From the NCBI GenBank assembly GCA_003647765.1, contig QMNM01000074.1, forward strand, positions 1 through 7,109: a stretch of DNA of 7,109 bases. The letters run 5' to 3'. Below the pieces are notes generated by a model. That model had not been told where the DNA came from and did not search any database. It worked only from the letters and a program-made list of their open reading frames with translations. The stretch comes from Candidatus Cloacimonadota bacterium (lineage in GTDB: Bacteria; Cloacimonadota; Cloacimonadia; JGIOTU-2; B8-G9). Positions within the stretch are counted from its first letter, which is position 1; each line of letters starts with the position of its first letter. Below are positions 212-6,814 of the stretch, in pieces. The translations under genes and the position numbers were made by a program.

Positions 212-1483
212 TTAAAAGAATATCCTCATCCATAGCTCCAACTTTTGCTGATTCTGTTTATTACCAAATTCTGTTCCGTCATTTCCAGTTAGAAATGTGG
301 GACGAACAATAAATTCAAAATTTGTAATCGGCTTATAACTCAGTGAGATTGAAAGCAAAAAACTTCTGTCAGCCATATTATAAATCGTAGAAAGATACGG
401 TGTAAAATAAAGCCAATTAAAAGGTTCTGGATGTTGAATCTTCAAATAAAGATAATTCTGCATCAAAGTCCTGTTCTTAAAATATTTCTGGCTATATCCC
501 AATGCTTTATCTATCTCATCTTCATCATTACTATCAATGTTATTCTGGATAAAATCCATATAGTTCGTATATTCAGTTTTAGTCAATCCAATATCATTGT
601 GATAATATTCAGCGATAATTGTAGTATTCCATTGAAATAGATAACGCAATCCAAATAGATAAGTATAACCATCCTCTTTAGTGCTAAAAAGATTATTATT
701 AACAATAGTGTTTTTAGGATGATCCATAGAATAAGACAACTCACCGTGAATTTCTATATTTTGCCTGAGATTAGCGGAAAAGTCCGCTCCAAAACGACAG
801 GGATTTACTTTACTAAAATAACGCATTATATCAATATCAATATCCCATAGCATAAAATAGTTCTTTATCGCAATATCCGTATTTTCTATTTCAGCATATT
901 GATTATTGATGATTTCAGAGGGTGGGATGATTACCGCTGTCATCGCAAAAGTTTTCAAAATATTCGTATTGAAGCTTTTTATCATCTCAAAATTCACTGA
1001 CAATAGACCTGCTTGTGAAAGTTCTGGATTTTCAGGGTCCTTGAATGGATTGACATATCCTACCGGATTGAACGCATAGCCCTTTCCCCAATTATACATC
1101 TTTTTACCAGCCTGTATAAATGAGTTCAAAGACAGGTTAATATCGCCATAAGCTTCAAACAAGTCAAAACTGGCTTTTGAATCGTTATAATAATTAGAAT
1201 GTGTTTTCAGGTGAAAGCCAATATCTTTGGTCTGATAGTCTGCATTCAAGTAGAGCTCTAACCGATATTGAGATAAATATCCAGACATATCATCTTGATT
1301 AAAAAATTGAAGCTGATAAAAAGGAGAAGACCTTCTGGTGTGAAATGCCAAATATTTACCATCAAGATTGCCATTCCATTCAAGTTTCTTTTCAGGTTCC
1401 TCAGGAATATCAAAAGAATAATCTTCGGCAAAAACAACCATACATTGAAATATTAATAGTGTGATTGTCAGGAAAGATTTCAT
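212..1483 (-). CDS. Outer-membrane beta-barrel protein (DUF1302/alginate-export-like), last gene of the export operon
   Basis: This encodes 423 residues. Residues 1-19 look like a Sec signal peptide (hydrophobic stretch ending VVFA, then EDYS). There is a cysteine at 14 but no lipobox, so signal peptidase I cleavage is likely. The mature part is rich in alternating polar/aromatic strands and ends in RIFF; a terminal phenylalanine is the usual signal for BAM-dependent insertion. Residues 126-160 (GKKMYNWGKGYAFNPVGYVN, then a KDPENPE segment) resemble the WG-x-G ... NP ... KDPE motif that I associate with DUF1302-type barrels found beside LolA-like proteins. The start is supported by GGAGA six bases upstream, and the ATG overlaps the preceding gene's stop (ATGA), implying translational coupling. 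I infer that it is the outer-membrane end of the transport system encoded upstream. Barrel class is fairly sure; substrate and exact family are not. Confidence 0.75.
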   Translation of the reverse strand: MKSFLTITLLIFQCMVVFAEDYSFDIPEEPEKKLEWNGNLDGKYLAFHTRRSSPFYQLQFFNQDDMSGYLSQYRLELYLNADYQTKDIGFHLKTHSNYYNDSKASFDLFEAYGDINLSLNSFIQAGKKMYNWGKGYAFNPVGYVNPFKDPENPELSQAGLLSVNFEMIKSFNTNILKTFAMTAVIIPPSEIINNQYAEIENTDIAIKNYFMLWDIDIDIMRYFSKVNPCRFGADFSANLRQNIEIHGELSYSMDHPKNTIVNNNLFSTKEDGYTYLFGLRYLFQWNTTIIAEYYHNDIGLTKTEYTNYMDFIQNNIDSNDEDEIDKALGYSQKYFKNRTLMQNYLYLKIQHPEPFNWLYFTPYLSTIYNMADRSFLLSISLSYKPITNFEFIVRPTFLTGNDGTEFGNKQNQQKLELWMRIFF

Positions 1484-2220
1484 CGCAAATCTCCGAGTTT
1501 TGGCAAATAATTTAATGTAAATACCTCATCAGGGAGCTTGCGTACTTTTATTTTAGAATAAATCATTATTGAACGATAATCTTTATATAATGGACTATGT
1601 GTCTCAATAATTGAAGGACGAACTATTCCATTCCCAAAATCCTTAATCTCTTTGAATTCCAATGTCTTAATCAGCATACCACTGGCAGAATAACATTCAA
1701 TTTTAGTAACTAACAAGGACTTTTTTGTAATCCACATTTTTAATTTGTCATAAGCCACTGTATTACTTTTGGCTTTTAAATCCAGGATATATTCCGTTTC
1801 TGTTTTTTTCAGAATTGTGGCATCATATTCAAAGTGAAAATCCAATCGCATAATATCTGCATTGTTGAACACACCGCCAATAACTGATTGCAGACTGGTA
1901 ATTCTAATAGGTTTTCCAACATTGGGGATATATAGCCACATATTATCACCAAGTCGCAGAGAGGCTCTCCCTTTTTCACTTGCAGGTGAAAGATAAAGCA
2001 TAGCCATTTTATCATTGCCCTTCTTTACCGTGTAGAAGATGTATTCCTTCTTCTTGCCATCCGGCTCTTCATTAATCAACTTACGATACGCTTCAAAGGA
2101 CTCTGGAAAAAGTTTTTCGTCAATAGATTTTAATAACTCATTAGCATCCTGGGCAAATCCTGTAGATACTGAAATAAGCAGGATAACTATCCATATAATC
2201 ATCATTTTTACTTGTAACAT
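1480..2220 (-). CDS. Periplasmic LolA-like 'outer membrane lipoprotein-sorting protein' (PF17131-type)
   Basis: This encodes 246 residues. Residues 1-23 form a signal peptide (MLQVKMM, a hydrophobic run, then GFA|Q), placing the protein in the periplasm. Several segments match the LolA-like family usually annotated as outer membrane lipoprotein-sorting protein: GRASLRLGDNMWLYIPNVGK (84-103), the FNNADIMRLDF block (118-128), LDLKAKS..AYDKLKMWI (147-164), a GMLIKTLEF strand (181-189) and the terminal FTLNYLPKL (234-242). LolA-fold proteins shelter acyl chains in an open half-barrel. The protein therefore probably ferries a lipid or lipoprotein between the upstream ABC transporter and the downstream outer-membrane barrel. 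The first ATG is chosen because AGGTGG lies six bases upstream; an internal Met at residue 6 has no such site. It follows the permease after a 149-bp repeat-filled gap and overlaps the barrel gene by 4 bp. The family is clear; the cargo is unknown. Confidence 0.87.
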   Translation of the reverse strand: MLQVKMMIIWIVILLISVSTGFAQDANELLKSIDEKLFPESFEAYRKLINEEPDGKKKEYIFYTVKKGNDKMAMLYLSPASEKGRASLRLGDNMWLYIPNVGKPIRITSLQSVIGGVFNNADIMRLDFHFEYDATILKKTETEYILDLKAKSNTVAYDKLKMWITKKSLLVTKIECYSASGMLIKTLEFKEIKDFGNGIVRPSIIETHSPLYKDYRSIMIYSKIKVRKLPDEVFTLNYLPKLGDLR

Positions 2221-2251
2221 AATTTTCCACCTTTTTGGTTATCATTTATTT

Positions 2252-2322
2252 CACTGCAAAGATGCAGAGACGCAAAGATTTATATTTATTTTTCTTGGTG
2301 TCTTGGTGCCTTTGTGGCAAAA
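2252..2322. repeat. Fold-back dispersed repeat in the permease/LolA-like gap
   Basis: The left block (2252-2277, CACTGCAAAGATGCAGAGAC then GCAAAG) and the right block (2294-2321, CTTGGTGTCTTGGTGCCTTT then GTGGCAAA) are imperfect inverted copies; about 16 of 25 positions agree by hand. They are separated by an AT-only spacer of 16 bases. Sequences of this kind (contexts like GCAGAGACGCAAAG and GGCACCAAGACACC) recur in intergenic DNA of many unrelated bacteria. The pair sits in the middle of an apparent operon, so its RNA hairpin could affect relative expression of the genes on either side. Confidence 0.65.
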
Positions 2323-2341
2323 TTAAACAAATGCAAAAACT

Positions 2342-2369
2342 TTATTTCGCGATTTTCGTGGGCATCTCT
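2342..2369. repeat. Possible 'TTTCGCGATTTTCG' dispersed repeat fragment
   Basis: Immediately after the permease stop codon lies TTATTTCGCGATTTTCGTGG followed by GCAT. It contains two spaced TTTCG words and resembles short repeats of the form TTTCGCG..TTTCGCGGGC that I have seen in intergenic DNA of other bacteria. Only one copy is present here, so the call rests on resemblance. Confidence 0.25.
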
Positions 2370-3623
2370 TTATACATGTCGCAATGCATCAACTGGCTCC
2401 AATTTTGAGGCTTTTATTGCTGGTTGCAGACTGGACACTACCGAAATAATGATAACTATCAAACTTGTAAAAATAACTTCACTTAACTGGATTTCAGGCG
2501 ATAGAGCGAGTTCCATCCTACCAAAAGTGAAATTGAGTTTGATAATACTGAATAAAAACAAAATAGCAATTCCTAACAAACTACCTACTATACTACTAAT
2601 CAGTCCAAGAGAGAATCCTTCTACAAGAAATAATGAAAGTATCTTTCCCGGTGGTGTGCCGATTGATGCAATAGTTCCTATTTCACTGACCCTTTCATAT
2701 ACCGACATAATCATTACATTTAGAATGCTTACAAGCACAATAAAAATAAGCACAATTTTAACCACAATAATCAATAAATCTATAATTCTAACAATACTGG
2801 CGAAAGGAGAAAGTTCTTTCCAGGTGCTTATCTCATACATTGGTTTGCCAGATTGGGTTTTGAATTTCATCAATTCAGATTTCAATTGATTATAAACATA
2901 ATCCAGTTTATCAAAATTATTGAGTTTGATAGCTATTTCAGTAACTTCGTTCTGACTGGTCGGGATTCGTAGTAATGTCCTGGCATCGTCTAAATGCAAA
3001 TAACCATCTTTTCCAGTGGGTCCTAAAATATTCTCGGAAATTCCACTTACTCGTAAAGTAATGCCATTTACAGAACCATCTTTATTATTGGCAACCAATA
3101 CTACATCGGAACCGACCTTTAGATCAAGTCCTTGTGCAAGATTAATCGGAACAATAAGTTCTCCTCGTCTAACAAAATTGGATGGTTCATTTTTACTGTT
3201 TTTAATTCTTTTGGGCAAATCTGGACAGGTCTGACTCTCCATTTCTGGATAGACAGCAGTCAAACGAATATTAGTCGTCTGAACAAAATTACTAATTGCC
3301 GAACCAAACCTAAATCGCTTTGAAAAGGCTTTAATCTGTTCATTCTCTTTCAGCAGATTCTCTATCTTATTTATACCCTCGCCACTTATGGTCAAATCCA
3401 ATGGCAGATTATCAATGGAGCTGATATAGCCTTTTTTGTGAATTTGTATGTCAGCAAGGTTGGAATTAGTCAGAATACCAATAACTTTATTTTTGAACGA
3501 ATTAGCAATACCTCCAAAAACAACTACCAAAATAACTCCAATAGCTATCAATGAAGCAGTCAGAAGAGTTCGGCGCTTATATCTAAAAAGATTACGCAAT
3601 GCGATTTTTAATATATTACCCAT
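2370..3623 (-). CDS. ABC transporter permease, FtsX/MacB/LolC-type (type VII)
   Basis: This encodes 417 residues from the chosen start. One N-terminal transmembrane helix (about 20-42) follows a basic segment (ALRNLFRYKRR). A periplasmic MacB-PCD-like domain spans about 43-278. Three C-terminal helices lie at about 281-306, 332-359 and 382-400. The end, PAIKASKLEPVDALRHV, is the hallmark of FtsX-fold permeases, and the ERVSEIGTIASIGTPP stretch (310-325) is the usual coupling-helix region facing the ATPase. An upstream in-frame ATG (3674) would add 17 residues lying inside the ATPase gene. The ATG at 3623 is preferred because it starts one base after the ATPase stop and has AGGAAGGG eight bases upstream. 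Such permeases do not import; they transmit ATP-driven motion to periplasmic or outer-membrane partners, as in LolCDE and MacAB. Only one permease gene is present, so a homodimer is likely. No MacA-like adaptor is encoded nearby. Confidence 0.93.
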   Translation of the reverse strand: MGNILKIALRNLFRYKRRTLLTASLIAIGVILVVVFGGIANSFKNKVIGILTNSNLADIQIHKKGYISSIDNLPLDLTISGEGINKIENLLKENEQIKAFSKRFRFGSAISNFVQTTNIRLTAVYPEMESQTCPDLPKRIKNSKNEPSNFVRRGELIVPINLAQGLDLKVGSDVVLVANNKDGSVNGITLRVSGISENILGPTGKDGYLHLDDARTLLRIPTSQNEVTEIAIKLNNFDKLDYVYNQLKSELMKFKTQSGKPMYEISTWKELSPFASIVRIIDLLIIVVKIVLIFIVLVSILNVMIMSVYERVSEIGTIASIGTPPGKILSLFLVEGFSLGLISSIVGSLLGIAILFLFSIIKLNFTFGRMELALSPEIQLSEVIFTSLIVIIISVVSSLQPAIKASKLEPVDALRHV

Positions 3624-3624
3624 T

Positions 3625-4329
3625 TTAGTTTCCCTTCCTGTCATTATGGATTTTTTTATCAACGACCAATCCATCTTCTAATGTATAAATAGTTTCAACT
3701 TCGCCAACTACTTTAGGATCGTGAGTTGCAAAAATGAAGGTTGTTCCCAATTCGTTCTTCATTATATGCATAGTTTTTATGACTCTGTAAGCGGTTTTAT
3801 GATCCAGATTAGCTGTAGGTTCATCAGCCAGAACTATCTTCGGATTGGTTACAAGTGCCCTTGCAACTGCCACTCTTTGCTTTTGTCCACCGGAAAGCTG
3901 ATTTGGATATTTATCTTTTTGGTCTAACATACCAACCTTTTCCAATAGAGTAAGCACTCTTTTCTTTCGTTCGGTTTTTGGAACACTATGCACCATAATT
4001 AGAGGGTATTCCACATTTTCAAATACTGTCAGAACTGGCAGAAGGTTGAAATTTTGAAATATAAAACCGATATTATCTCCTCTGAACTTTGCTGATTCTT
4101 TTCTACCCAATTGATTGACTTTTACATCATTGATGAAAATCTCACCATTAGTTGGTTTATCCAAACAGCCAATTAAATTCAATAGTGTAGTCTTACCGCT
4201 TCCTGAAGGTCCGATAAATGAAATAAATTTACCTTTGTTAATATTAAGATTAATATCTTTCAAAGCAGATACCTTAACTTCACCTACTTGATAAATTTTC
4301 TTAACATTTTTTAATTTTACTAAACTCAT
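3625..4329 (-). CDS. ABC transporter ATP-binding protein, LolD/MacB-type
   Basis: This encodes 234 residues, the usual size for LolD-like ATPases. The motifs are all intact: Walker A GPSGSGKTT (40-48), Q-loop Gln92 in IFQNFNLLP, signature LSGGQKQRVAVARAL (145-159), Walker B IVLADE (165-170) with PTANLD, and the H-loop His203 in FATHD. The family pairs with FtsX-fold permeases and powers mechanotransmission at the inner membrane rather than classical import. The permease gene begins one base after this stop codon. The ATG has GAGG five bases upstream. It is the first gene of the operon; an IS-derived element ends 47 bp upstream, so its promoter is either within those 47 bp or supplied by the element. 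Nothing separates LolD, MacB and FtsE-like roles by sequence alone. The LolA-like neighbour favours a LolD-like role, but this may be an accessory system rather than the housekeeping Lol pathway. Confidence 0.95.
   Translation of the reverse strand: MSLVKLKNVKKIYQVGEVKVSALKDINLNINKGKFISFIGPSGSGKTTLLNLIGCLDKPTNGEIFINDVKVNQLGRKESAKFRGDNIGFIFQNFNLLPVLTVFENVEYPLIMVHSVPKTERKKRVLTLLEKVGMLDQKDKYPNQLSGGQKQRVAVARALVTNPKIVLADEPTANLDHKTAYRVIKTMHIMKNELGTTFIFATHDPKVVGEVETIYTLEDGLVVDKKIHNDRKGN
3631..3639 (-). promoter_or_regulatory. Ribosome binding site deciding the permease start
   Basis: On the minus strand AGGAAGGGA precedes the ATG at 3623-3621. It lies within the last codons of the ATPase gene, which ends (TAA, 3627-3625) one base before the permease ATG. 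This supports the shorter 417-residue permease and translational coupling of the two proteins. Confidence 0.75.
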
Positions 4330-4365: not shown

Positions 4366-4395
4366 CCTGCAACTAAGAGGGTGTTTTAAAAGTTT

Positions 4396-4765
4396 CTATA
4401 GGACATTTACAGTATATTGAGCAAGCCGTTTTAACATCAACCGAACCATTGCTGCATAAATGATAGCTTCACTTGGTTCAGTATGATGTCCAGATTGTAT
4501 CCTCACTGCTTCTCGCAGTGCGTCATTCATCTCTTCCTATATGCCATCTTTACGCCAATTATTAAAGTAGCCATAGACTGTTGACCAAGTGGGAAGTCAT
4601 GAGGGAGCATACGCCAGGAATAGCCACTTCGCAGAACATAAAATATACCATTGACTATTTCTCGCATATCTACTTCTCTGCGATGTCCACCTGGCTTGGC
4701 GGATGGTATGCTCTAAAATGACCCACTCTCTATCTGTTAAATCACTCGGGTATAATTTTTTTCAT
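4396..4765 (-). pseudogene. Remnant of IS5-family transposase (deleted and frameshifted)
   Basis: Starting at the ATG at 4765-4763, the frame breaks in a run of seven A; with one A fewer it reads MKKLYPSDLTDREWVILE, the classic start of IS5/IS427 transposases. A second shift near 4708-4713 restores AKPGGHRREVDMREIVNGIF and YVLRSGYSWRMLPHDFP. A third near 4587-4594 leads into TWSTVYGYFNNWRKDGI, then an in-frame TAG at 4539-4537 where Trp is expected, then EEMNDALREAV...TEPSEAII. The text then jumps directly to YAAMVRLMLKRLA, the C-terminal signature, and a TAG at 4398-4396. The DDE catalytic core between them is absent. It is clearly non-functional. Confidence 0.88.
4411..4440 (-). promoter_or_regulatory. 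Possible outward promoter inside the IS remnant
   Basis: On the minus strand TTGATG (4440-4435) and TATACT (4416-4411) are separated by 18 bases. The pair resembles a sigma-70 promoter and would read out of the element into the ABC operon, with a start near 4404. The match is partial (4 of 6 and 5 of 6), and AT-rich DNA gives such pairs by chance. Confidence 0.25.
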
Positions 4766-4818
4766 ACCCTATATATTAACTGGTTTTTTCAACAACAAAT
4801 CTTTTAAAATACGCTCTC

Positions 4819-5122: not shown

Positions 5123-6280
5123 TCATATAATTTTACCTTCCCACAAATCACGAAGAAATCTTCTATATGGCATTATTCGTATCTGCCTATGAATTCTCTC
5201 TTCTCTTTCGTTACAAACAACTAAAGCCTTAGTCGGCGAATATTCTTCTATGAAGGCGTTCAGAGGTCGCAAATCCTTTTTATTTATATGATCCTTGCCC
5301 TTCACTTCAATAGCAATTTCACCACTGCCAAGCACAAAATCAACTTCCAGACCTGACTTTGTCCGCCAAAAATTGATTTCATAATCTAATTCGTTGTAAG
5401 AGTTATAAGCTGCTATTTCCATAAATATGAAATGTTCAAATGCTTTTCCGAACAATTCACCTTTCTCTTCCGTCAGATGTCGCTTTGTTATTGCACCTGC
5501 AACTCCTACATCAAACAAATAGAACTTTGCCATCCTGCTTATGACTTGCCGATTTTGCCTTCTCTTGAAAGGCTCTACCATTGTTCCAAGAAGTGTGTCA
5601 ACAAGTATCTGGTAATACTCTTTTACTGTCTTTGAATCCACTCCGCACTCACGCGCTATGTTTGAGTAGTTAGTAAGCTCACCATGAGAGTATCCCATAG
5701 CATCAAAGAACCTGGAAAATGCTGGAATGTTCCGAGTCAATCCCTCAGCAAAAACCTCTTCTTTTAAGTAATCTTGAATATAAGACCTCAAAGTTTTCTT
5801 ATAGTTTTCCTGTAGATAATGATCTGGTATCATACCGCGATTCAGAATTCTCAATAAATCCCAGTTTTCCAGTTCAGCAGTAACGAATGGGAACATTTCA
5901 TAACGCCATGCTCGTCCTCCAAGTAAATTGGCTTTTCCTCGCTTAAGTTTCCGTGCGCTTGAACCACACAGTATAAAACGCAATCCAATGTTCTCTATCA
6001 ACCAATGCACTTCATCTAAAATCTGAGGAATCTTCTGGACTTCATCTAATATTATCGGATAGTTCAAAACATCATCTTTCTTTGCCAGCAATTGTTCTCG
6101 CAATAGAGAGGGCTTTTTGGAGAACTCAAAGAACAGATCTGTTTGAAGAAAATCATAGACCACACTGCAAGGAAACTTTGCTTTCAGATAGGTCGTTTTA
6201 CCTGTTTTTCTTGGTCCCCATAAAAACGCAGATTGTTGAGGTGGAAGAGCAATATTTAGAATCCTTTTGATATTTTGCAT
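5123..6280 (-). CDS. AAA_14/DUF4143 family ATPase
   Basis: This encodes 385 residues, the usual length for the family. The N-terminal AAA domain has Walker A GPRKTGKTT (22-30), Walker B IILDE (76-80) followed by VQK, and a sensor strand ILCGSSARKLKRG (103-115). The LLGGRA motif (119-124) and the RSYIQDYLKEEV region (165-176) follow. The DUF4143 half (about 195-345) shows the LTNYSNIARECGV winged-helix segment (202-214), KTVKEYY and FYLFDVGV. It ends with a PD-(D/E)XK-like pattern: TKSGLEVDFVL (308-317) then IAIEVKG (322-328). Family members are widespread, often laterally mobile and mostly uncharacterised; some are annotated as ATP-binding proteins of the archaeal-type ATPase superfamily. The first in-frame ATG follows a stop; a GGAG lies about 12 bases upstream, which is distant. 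It stands alone, not in the ABC operon. The key residues are intact. Cellular role unknown. Confidence 0.93.
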   Translation of the reverse strand: MQNIKRILNIALPPQQSAFLWGPRKTGKTTYLKAKFPCSVVYDFLQTDLFFEFSKKPSLLREQLLAKKDDVLNYPIILDEVQKIPQILDEVHWLIENIGLRFILCGSSARKLKRGKANLLGGRAWRYEMFPFVTAELENWDLLRILNRGMIPDHYLQENYKKTLRSYIQDYLKEEVFAEGLTRNIPAFSRFFDAMGYSHGELTNYSNIARECGVDSKTVKEYYQILVDTLLGTMVEPFKRRQNRQVISRMAKFYLFDVGVAGAITKRHLTEEKGELFGKAFEHFIFMEIAAYNSYNELDYEINFWRTKSGLEVDFVLGSGEIAIEVKGKDHINKKDLRPLNAFIEEYSPTKALVVCNEREERIHRQIRIMPYRRFLRDLWEGKII

Positions 6281-6466
6281 TTTCGTATATTACTCCTATT
6301 TAGTCAAACTTTTTTGGAGATAACTGCAAATTCGTATAGAAAATTGTCAAAAAAATAATATTCTTACCACTGAACTTGATACTTGACATAAGTCTGAAAA
6401 ACTCTGATTCTATAAGATTAAGTGTGTTTGTGTATTGACCTACGGAGTTTTAAAAGGGAGGAGAAA

Positions 6467-6555
6467 TAGAACGCGGATTACACTGATAACACGGATAAAA
6501 AATATTATAATAAAAATCTGTGAAAATCTGTATAATCCGTGTCATCTGTGTTCTA
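6467..6555. repeat. Large imperfect inverted repeat, 'CGGATTACAC...GTGTCATCTGTG' type
   Basis: The left arm, 6467-6496 (TAGAACGCGGATTACACTGA and on to CACGGAT), is matched at 23 of 30 positions by the reverse complement of the right arm, 6526-6555. The arms contain internal near-repeats (CGGATTACAC / TGATAACAC), and the centre has two tandem AAAATCTGT words. Elements of this form (acgcggattacacggat...atccgtgt) are dispersed in intergenic DNA of many bacteria, so I read it as a copy of a mobile or otherwise spreading palindromic family rather than a local regulator. Confidence 0.75.
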
Positions 6556-6668
6556 TCTTTATAGTATTACACTAAGTAAGTACCGAATGTAATTTATTGT
6601 TTTTGTAGAGTCCTTTCCGAACTAGTTCCAGTATGTATCTGGAAAATCCGAGCTAAAACAGAAAAAAT

Positions 6669-6739: not shown

Positions 6740-6814
6740 GGGGAAGTAGCTCAGTGGGAGAGCATAGCATTCGCATTGCTAAGGTCGAGGGTTCAAATCC
6801 CTTCTTCTCCACCA
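6740..6814 (+). tRNA. tRNA-Ala (anticodon CGC)
   Basis: The full cloverleaf is 75 bases with CCA encoded. The acceptor stem GGGGAAG pairs with CTTCTCC and includes G3:U70, the main alanine identity element, followed by A73. The D stem is GCTC/GAGC with loop AGTGGGA. The anticodon stem is TAGCA/TGCTA with loop TTCGCAT, so the anticodon is CGC at 6772-6774, reading codon GCG. The variable loop is AGGTC. The T arm is GAGGG-TTCAAAT-CCCTT with one G:U pair. All stems close, so the gene looks functional. It is transcribed toward the broken ATPase gene on its right. No repeat of its 3' end is seen in this window, so there is no sign here of an integrated element. Confidence 0.97.

Follow-up and report, generated by a model that had tools for sequence, protein, structure and literature searches.

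A four-gene cassette of a type VII ABC transporter, a LolA-like carrier and an outer-membrane barrel, conserved across bacterial phyla

Outside the Lol, Lpt and Mla systems, it is still an open question how hydrophobic molecules get through the periplasm where no continuous tunnel is present. We analysed a stretch of DNA from a Candidatus Cloacimonadota bacterium, called the window below, which is one whole contig of 7,109 bases (C100) of a 1.97-Mb genome that is 88.8% complete. Its minus strand carries, between positions 212 and 4329, genes for an ATPase, a permease, a LolA-like protein and an outer-membrane barrel, in that order. A preliminary description of the letters had read these as one operon of a LolD-like ATPase, a single FtsX-fold permease, a LolA-like carrier and a barrel with a C-terminal Phe. 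All four open reading frames were found in place, and Pfam and AlphaFold2 confirm the assignments.

The closest published parallel is the BBJ23-29 cluster of Borrelia, for which transfer of a non-polar ligand to the outer membrane was proposed (PMC13078400). As in the window, a type VII ABC pair (an ATPase and one permease, there modelled as a homodimer), a LolA-like protein and a barrel are clustered. The Borrelia cluster has seven genes, including an Omp85-type barrel, two TPR proteins and one unknown protein, and is confined to Borrelia (PMC13078400), whereas the window cassette has an 18-strand OprD-like barrel, lacks TPR proteins and occurs in at least 12 phyla. We found no description of this gene set in the literature searched, beyond the Borrelia cluster. 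The idea of joining a type VII ABC transporter to a LolA-like protein and a barrel is known from Borrelia; what appears to be new is the present gene set.

Other described systems share parts of the design. LolCDE-LolA-LolB likewise has a LolC/E-fold permease, a LolD-like ATPase and a carrier of the LolA superfamily; unlike it, the window operon falls far under the LolC/E and LolD cut-offs, has a PF17131 carrier, lacks the Hook, holds a barrel in place of LolB, and is present on top of an ordinary Lol set. The RND/MMPL-LolA-DUF1302 systems (AmeABCD, PMC6394551; Cloacimonadota loci L040-L046), of which an RND-LolA-superfamily-DUF1302 system has been tied to monoterpene efflux (PMC6394551), follow the same logic of carrier and barrel, with distantly similar barrels, but they are energised by an RND pump, whereas the window uses an ABC transporter and its barrel has no DUF1302 match. 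MacAB-TolC shares the type VII permease with a MacB periplasmic core, and differs in its MacA-type adaptor, its TolC and an ATPase that is not separate from the permease. YbbAP-TesA likewise has a type VII transporter that takes hydrophobic compounds out of the inner membrane and passes them to a partner in the periplasm, but that partner is a hydrolase, the permease has ten helices and there is no outer-membrane component (PMC12646458).

Conservation and spread of the four-gene unit

A scan of 84,980 species genomes with the carrier alignment gave 468 relatives; an alignment pooling all energiser types was too diverse for use in the scan. The locus counts given here cover the best 80 of the 468, whose LolA-like proteins have 58-75% identity to the window protein and whose gene order was read by six-frame profile searches. 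The complete order ATPase-permease-LolA-like-barrel, on one strand, is present in 66 of the 80 loci. In the remaining 14 the absent genes fall at or past the end of a contig, and one of these, L085, has a shortened last reading frame that was not recognised as a barrel. Gene order is therefore kept across genomes, and a lack of co-occurrence, which the preliminary description had named as speaking against its proposal, did not arise. The LolA-like and barrel genes overlap by the four bases NTGA in 56 loci, the window form being ATGA. A secreted PF02579 (NifX/NafY-like) gene lies between the permease and LolA-like genes in 21 loci (L061, L064-L066, L074, L085, L087, L089-L091, L100, L107, L109-L112, L114, L115, L118, L120, L138); the window has none, and the four PF02579 matches of its genome are all outside the cassette. 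No other extra gene recurs within the 80 cassettes.

The distances of the four proteins correlate strongly (pairwise Mantel r 0.83-0.89 over 63 loci, where permutations reached at most 0.14), and the four are therefore inherited together. The conservation of the four-gene unit is well past chance. Host labels comprise KSB1, Neomarinimicrobiota, Bacteroidota, Ignavibacteriota, FCPU426, Latescibacterota, Elusimicrobiota, Edwardsbacteria, Delongbacteria, Spirochaetota, Thermodesulfobacteriota, Myxococcota, Pseudomonadota and Cloacimonadota, and cultured hosts include Desulfosarcina widdelii and Desulfogranum japonicum. In a tree of the concatenated proteins the phyla are intermixed; the window cassette pairs with L072 and then with an Elusimicrobia/FCB group, apart from the other Cloacimonadota cassettes. 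Such intermixing fits horizontal spread of the cassette, a pattern that binning errors and paralogues can mimic. A close copy is carried by only 4 of 59 order and class relatives, and the cassettes of the same-order genome G003 and of L128 (Candidatus Cloacimonadota bacterium CSMAG_2405) are identical.

Mis-binning of the window contig was considered and is less likely, because its tetranucleotide usage correlates with that of its own genome at 0.61-0.82, within the range of that genome with itself (0.48-0.88) and mostly above the correlation with foreign loci (0.25-0.62), and because a 116-bp element of the window is repeated on other contigs of the genome. Some room is left for it, since the window makes up an entire small contig and its cassette clusters with L072, apart from those of other Cloacimonadota. 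The cassette is a real and probably mobile four-gene module, apparently undescribed so far. The proposal of a distinct four-gene system from inner to outer membrane, with a barrel and no LolB, is supported by its conservation as a unit across phyla and by its coexistence with an ordinary Lol set.

The four proteins and their relation to the Lol pathway

The ATPase matches ABC_tran (PF00005) at 4.4e-38. Its top NCBIfam name is LolD (TIGR02211), as the preliminary label "LolD-like" would have it, but at 226 bits it is under the cut-off of 307.75 and is not a LolD equivalog. The permease matches FtsX (PF02687) and MacB_PCD (PF12704). With an FtsX domain, a MacB-like core between the first two transmembrane helices and an ABC_tran ATPase, the pair belongs to the type VII ABC (MacB) superfamily. 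The LolC/LolE model TIGR02212 gives 88 bits against a cut-off of 362, which is below equivalog level. In a fold search with the AlphaFold2 model of the permease (predicted local distance difference test, pLDDT, 87.2), LolE/LolC are nearest (Z 27.6-29.5), followed by MacB (Z 21.9) and HrtB, a heme exporter (Z 21.8). The single permease probably acts as a homodimer.

The essential Hook of LolC (residues 167-179) enters LolA, and its use is predicted across Proteobacteria (PMC10865981). Compared with E. coli LolC, whose Hook reads TPMGRIP, the window permease is 6 residues shorter at this place and has NKDGSVNG instead of TPxGxxP. Two other permeases of the same genome, L056 and L057, retain TPFGPIP and SPVGMIP at the Hook. 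The hairpin has a fixed length, and N180, G183, S184 and N186 (N-x-x-GS-x-N) are invariant in 49 of 49 permeases; the plasmid permeases of E. coli and Vibrio have a like pattern, D-x-A-[IL]-N-A. Because of its position and conservation, we propose the hairpin as a putative site for the recognition of PF17131 carriers, different from the Hook of LolC.

The carrier matches LolA_like (PF17131) at 6e-47 (160.1 bits, gathering score 30), and 3BUU is a solved relative (2.4e-33). LolA proper (PF03548) gives no Pfam match in the window carrier, PF17131 alone doing so, and the window protein is the one PF17131 protein of the whole genome. The family model of LolA3, a LolA paralogue of Porphyromonas gingivalis, weakly matches the window carrier. 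LolA3 has a LolA-like fold and hardly any LolB binding, and a separate role is supposed for it (PMC13103446).

The barrel has no Pfam or NCBIfam family. Its AlphaFold2 model, built with 60 homologues, has 18 strands and a mean pLDDT of 89.9. The nearest solved folds are the OprD/Occ channels (Z 23, root-mean-square deviation 3.0-3.5 over about 300 residues), followed by AlgE (Z 22), chitoporin (Z 21) and Wzi (Z 19.4). Omp85, the type of Borrelia BBJ25, is not among the fold matches listed, which does not exclude that type. The C-terminal Phe is present in 69 of 73 relatives, and the residues alternate between a polar lumen side (16% acidic, 14% basic) and a hydrophobic outside. Outside the strands, conservation peaks in two places, the loop that follows strand 5 (WGKGYAFNPVG...) and the turn HPEPFNWLY on the periplasmic side, each with a mean column conservation of 0.74 against 0.53 for the whole barrel. 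By analogy with the Occ channels, the loop between strands 5 and 6 could fold inward and form a constriction, and the carrier could dock at the turn. Membership in two families was tried and rejected: DUF1302 (PF06980) matches none of 66 members at E<=0.1, and the Wzi family (PF14052) matches weakly in 7 of the 66 (best 4.6e-4) and not in the window barrel, which we read as remote likeness of fold. The MMPL/RND operons of Cloacimonadota have a marginal DUF1302-like barrel (L040, 21.1 against 23.2 bits). The barrels beside these RND pumps are distantly related to that of the window (hhalign probability 86%, E 4.6e-6).

The genome also has an ordinary Lol set, a point on which the preliminary description had asked for a check. 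A PF03548 LolA is on contig C276, and two permeases more like LolC/E are on C317 (296 bits) and C41 (262 bits), the latter followed by a LolD-like ATPase; these too are under the TIGR02212 cut-off. The operon is separate from this set. LolB (PF03550) was not found in the 88.8% complete genome. To our knowledge LolB is absent from most phyla, and because of this its absence is no mark of the operon. The earlier reading of a Lol-type route in which a barrel replaces LolB is not upheld, and the four-gene operon is not part of the Lol pathway: both the LolC/E and the LolD cut-offs fail, the carrier belongs to PF17131 instead of PF03548, and the permease has no LolC Hook. The cassette also lacks a MacA-like adaptor, as had been noted before, and a search of the genome for TolC-type proteins (PF02321) gave one sub-threshold fragment and nothing over the cut-off.

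Cargo clues, proposed function and alternatives

Window-type cassettes mostly stand alone, and no constant biosynthetic neighbour was found among the loci. More distant modules are carried on plasmids. Those of Enterobacter bugandensis (L169) and Rahnella sikkimica (L170), which have a TPR-like gene between ATPase and permease, adjoin beta-ketoacyl synthases and an acyl transferase; that of Paraburkholderia (L171) adjoins a cytochrome P450, a flavin monooxygenase and a phosphopantetheinyl transferase; that of E. coli (L032), found in 2 of 5,426 genomes, adjoins an FeeM-type N-acyl amino acid synthase and a crotonase; and in Aliiroseovarius a ketoacyl synthase-like gene is a few genes off. By analogy, these neighbours point to acyl or polyketide-like molecules. 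The carriers of the plasmid modules are only about 24-33% identical, the link being one of architecture. The E. coli, Vibrio and Aliiroseovarius barrels are homologous to the window barrel (hhalign probability 98.6%), while the barrel profile does not recognise the last genes of L168 and L169 and recognises those of L170 and L171 weakly. The PF02579 gene, on the other hand, is a hint that the ligand of some loci is related to a metal or a cofactor, and the two clues disagree. ArsP/SaoE-like permeases, partly with PadR or ArsR-type regulators, adjoin the cassette in L078, L082, L084 and L092.

Three arrangements of the carrier are seen in Cloacimonadota: one has a single permease and a barrel, as in the window, the second has two permeases, and the third has an MMPL/RND pump. 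The two-permease version (L043, L045, L047, L049, L050, L053, L054) often has a barrel-like gene of about 360 residues upstream, and a TetR regulator is found in two loci of this type, L043 and L051. In L040, L041, L042, L044 and L046 an MMPL/RND pump, a patatin-like phospholipase, the LolA-like protein and a barrel form one operon. Because of these three arrangements, the energisers appear exchangeable around a constant carrier. A P. gingivalis set of TetR, MMPL, "lipoprotein-sorting protein" and hypothetical genes was among those most induced under hemin limitation (PMC10470040).

We propose that the operon encodes a self-contained, shuttle-type export machine. The substrate would be handed to the LolA-like protein, which may recognise the permease by way of the conserved NKDGSVNG hairpin; the loaded protein would then cross the periplasm and deliver to the cognate 18-strand barrel, and the barrel would put the substrate into the outer membrane or release it from the cell. 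A shuttle mechanism is likely, and we lean, by a modest measure, to a shuttle-type exporter whose cargo is a small hydrophobic metabolite or lipid rather than a lipoprotein. This is favoured by the fixed order, joint divergence and 4-bp overlap of the genes, the LolE/LolC fold of the permease, and a carrier family with solved relatives; by a strictly conserved hairpin where LolC bears its LolA-recruiting Hook; by a polar-lumen, 18-strand barrel nearest to the OprD/Occ channels and the exporter AlgE; by the lack of MacA in the cassette and of a TolC over the cut-off in the genome; and by the biosynthetic neighbours of the distant plasmid modules, the operons with MMPL/RND pumps swapped in, and the monoterpene-linked RND system (PMC6394551). 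Several points weigh on the other side. No member of this subfamily has a known cargo, phenotype or interaction. The metabolite link leans on relatives with carriers of such low identity, because window-like cassettes mostly stand alone, and the last genes of L168-L171 are missed or weakly matched by the barrel profile. The permease fold is closer to LolC/E than to MacB, and the polar lumen offers no obvious fit for a very greasy molecule.

A wider version of the exporter reading, which we hold tentatively, is that of a general export system of the cell envelope, spread horizontally, in which an ABC homodimer, a LolA-fold shuttle with its own docking hairpin and an 18-strand exit barrel would make up the entire pathway of a lipid or hydrophobic metabolite, as a carrier-based counterpart of tripartite efflux pumps with interchangeable ABC and RND energisers. 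Since the module is complete in four genes, has cultured hosts, and has relatives in polyketide- and acyl-lipid-type clusters of culturable enterobacteria, the cargo, the hairpin and the barrel are directly testable. A function is suggested as well for some of the large group of proteins annotated, probably wrongly, as "outer membrane lipoprotein-sorting protein".

The alternatives differ from the shuttle-type exporter in cargo, in mechanism or in direction. The preliminary description had left lipid and lipoprotein export side by side; the neighbours of the distant relatives speak for hydrophobic metabolites more than for lipoproteins. A specialised second route for lipoproteins, in which the permease would extract one class of lipoprotein and the barrel would replace LolB or export to the surface what the LolA-like protein brings, is suggested by the LolE/LolC-like fold of the permease, by the LolA superfamily of the carrier and by the authors of the Borrelia study, who favour lipoproteins as possible cargo (PMC13078400). 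We consider it unlikely: an ordinary LolA and LolC/E-like permeases are in the same genome, the Hook of LolC is missing, the cassettes share no recurrent lipoprotein gene, and LolA3, to whose family model the carrier weakly responds, barely binds LolB (PMC13103446). Transport of a hydrophobic metal-containing or porphyrin-like compound, bound in some copies by the secreted NifX-like protein, would account for the PF02579 gene of 21 loci, for the ArsP-like permeases and ArsR or PadR regulators that adjoin several loci, for HrtBA, a type VII heme exporter, among the fold matches (Z 21.8), and for the strong induction of the P. gingivalis MMPL-LolA-like operon at low hemin (PMC10470040). It is improbable, as most loci, the window among them, lack the NifX-like gene, the ArsP neighbours are limited to a few loci and the HrtB fold is common to all type VII permeases.

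Reversal of direction, with a hydrophobic nutrient or lipid entering through the barrel and being brought by the carrier to the inner membrane, draws on the likeness of the barrel to the OprD/Occ channels, which serve uptake. The relatives, however, are located in biosynthetic clusters, lipid-handling type VII transporters release their substrates outward, and we know of no characterised type VII transporter that imports; we regard this reading as very improbable. Hardly more or less so is a MacAB-TolC-like efflux pump with the LolA-like protein as a fixed adaptor instead of a shuttle. The permease does have a MacB_PCD domain and resembles MacB in fold (Z 21.9), but a MacA-type adaptor and a TolC are lacking as described above, the 18-strand barrel has no periplasmic tunnel, and the LolA fold is a soluble cup.

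Gene junctions and neighbouring features

Coordinates are collected in Table 1. The permease reading frame as listed has 434 residues, with an in-frame start further upstream; the most likely start is the ATG ending at 3623, behind AGGAAGGG, because relatives start there, which gives 417 residues. The gap of about 150 bp between the permease and LolA-like genes holds a dispersed repeat (2221-2345) and no gene, with four weaker matches elsewhere in the genome. Scans for promoters and terminators gave results at chance level.

Table 1. Features of the four-gene operon in the window
Feature	Position	Strand	Basis
ABC ATPase, LolD/MacB type, 234 aa	3625..4329	-	ABC_tran, best NCBIfam TIGR02211 LolD
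Single FtsX-type permease, MacB-like periplasmic core domain, 417 aa	2370..3623	-	PF02687, PF12704, AlphaFold2
Hairpin tip NKDGSVNG, permease residues 180-187, at the place of the LolC Hook	3063..3086	-	Invariant residues
LolA_like periplasmic carrier, 246 aa, signal peptide, no lipobox	1480..2220	-	PF17131
18-strand outer-membrane beta-barrel, 423 aa, signal peptide, C-terminal Phe	212..1483	-	AlphaFold2
Barrel loop, strands 5/6, MYNWGKGYAFNPVG..., outer-face by topology, probably folded inward	1007..1099	-	Column conservation
Periplasmic turn HPEPFNWLY, barrel strands 14/15, candidate carrier-docking site	407..433	-	Conservation, strand counting
ATGA overlap of LolA-like stop and barrel start (translational coupling)	1480..1483	-	Junction GCGATGAAA

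Upstream of the operon, the minus strand carries at 4380-4780 the broken remnant of an IS4/IS5-family transposase (DUF4096), with stops and frame changes inside, and at 5123-6280 an AAA_14/DUF4143 ATPase of 385 residues, an accessory gene with no relation to the operon. The 116-bp element at 6455-6570 is a dispersed repeat with 12 further matches in the genome, at most 97% identical, one of them on the LolC/E-like contig C317. A tRNA-Ala gene with anticodon CGC lies at 6740-6814.

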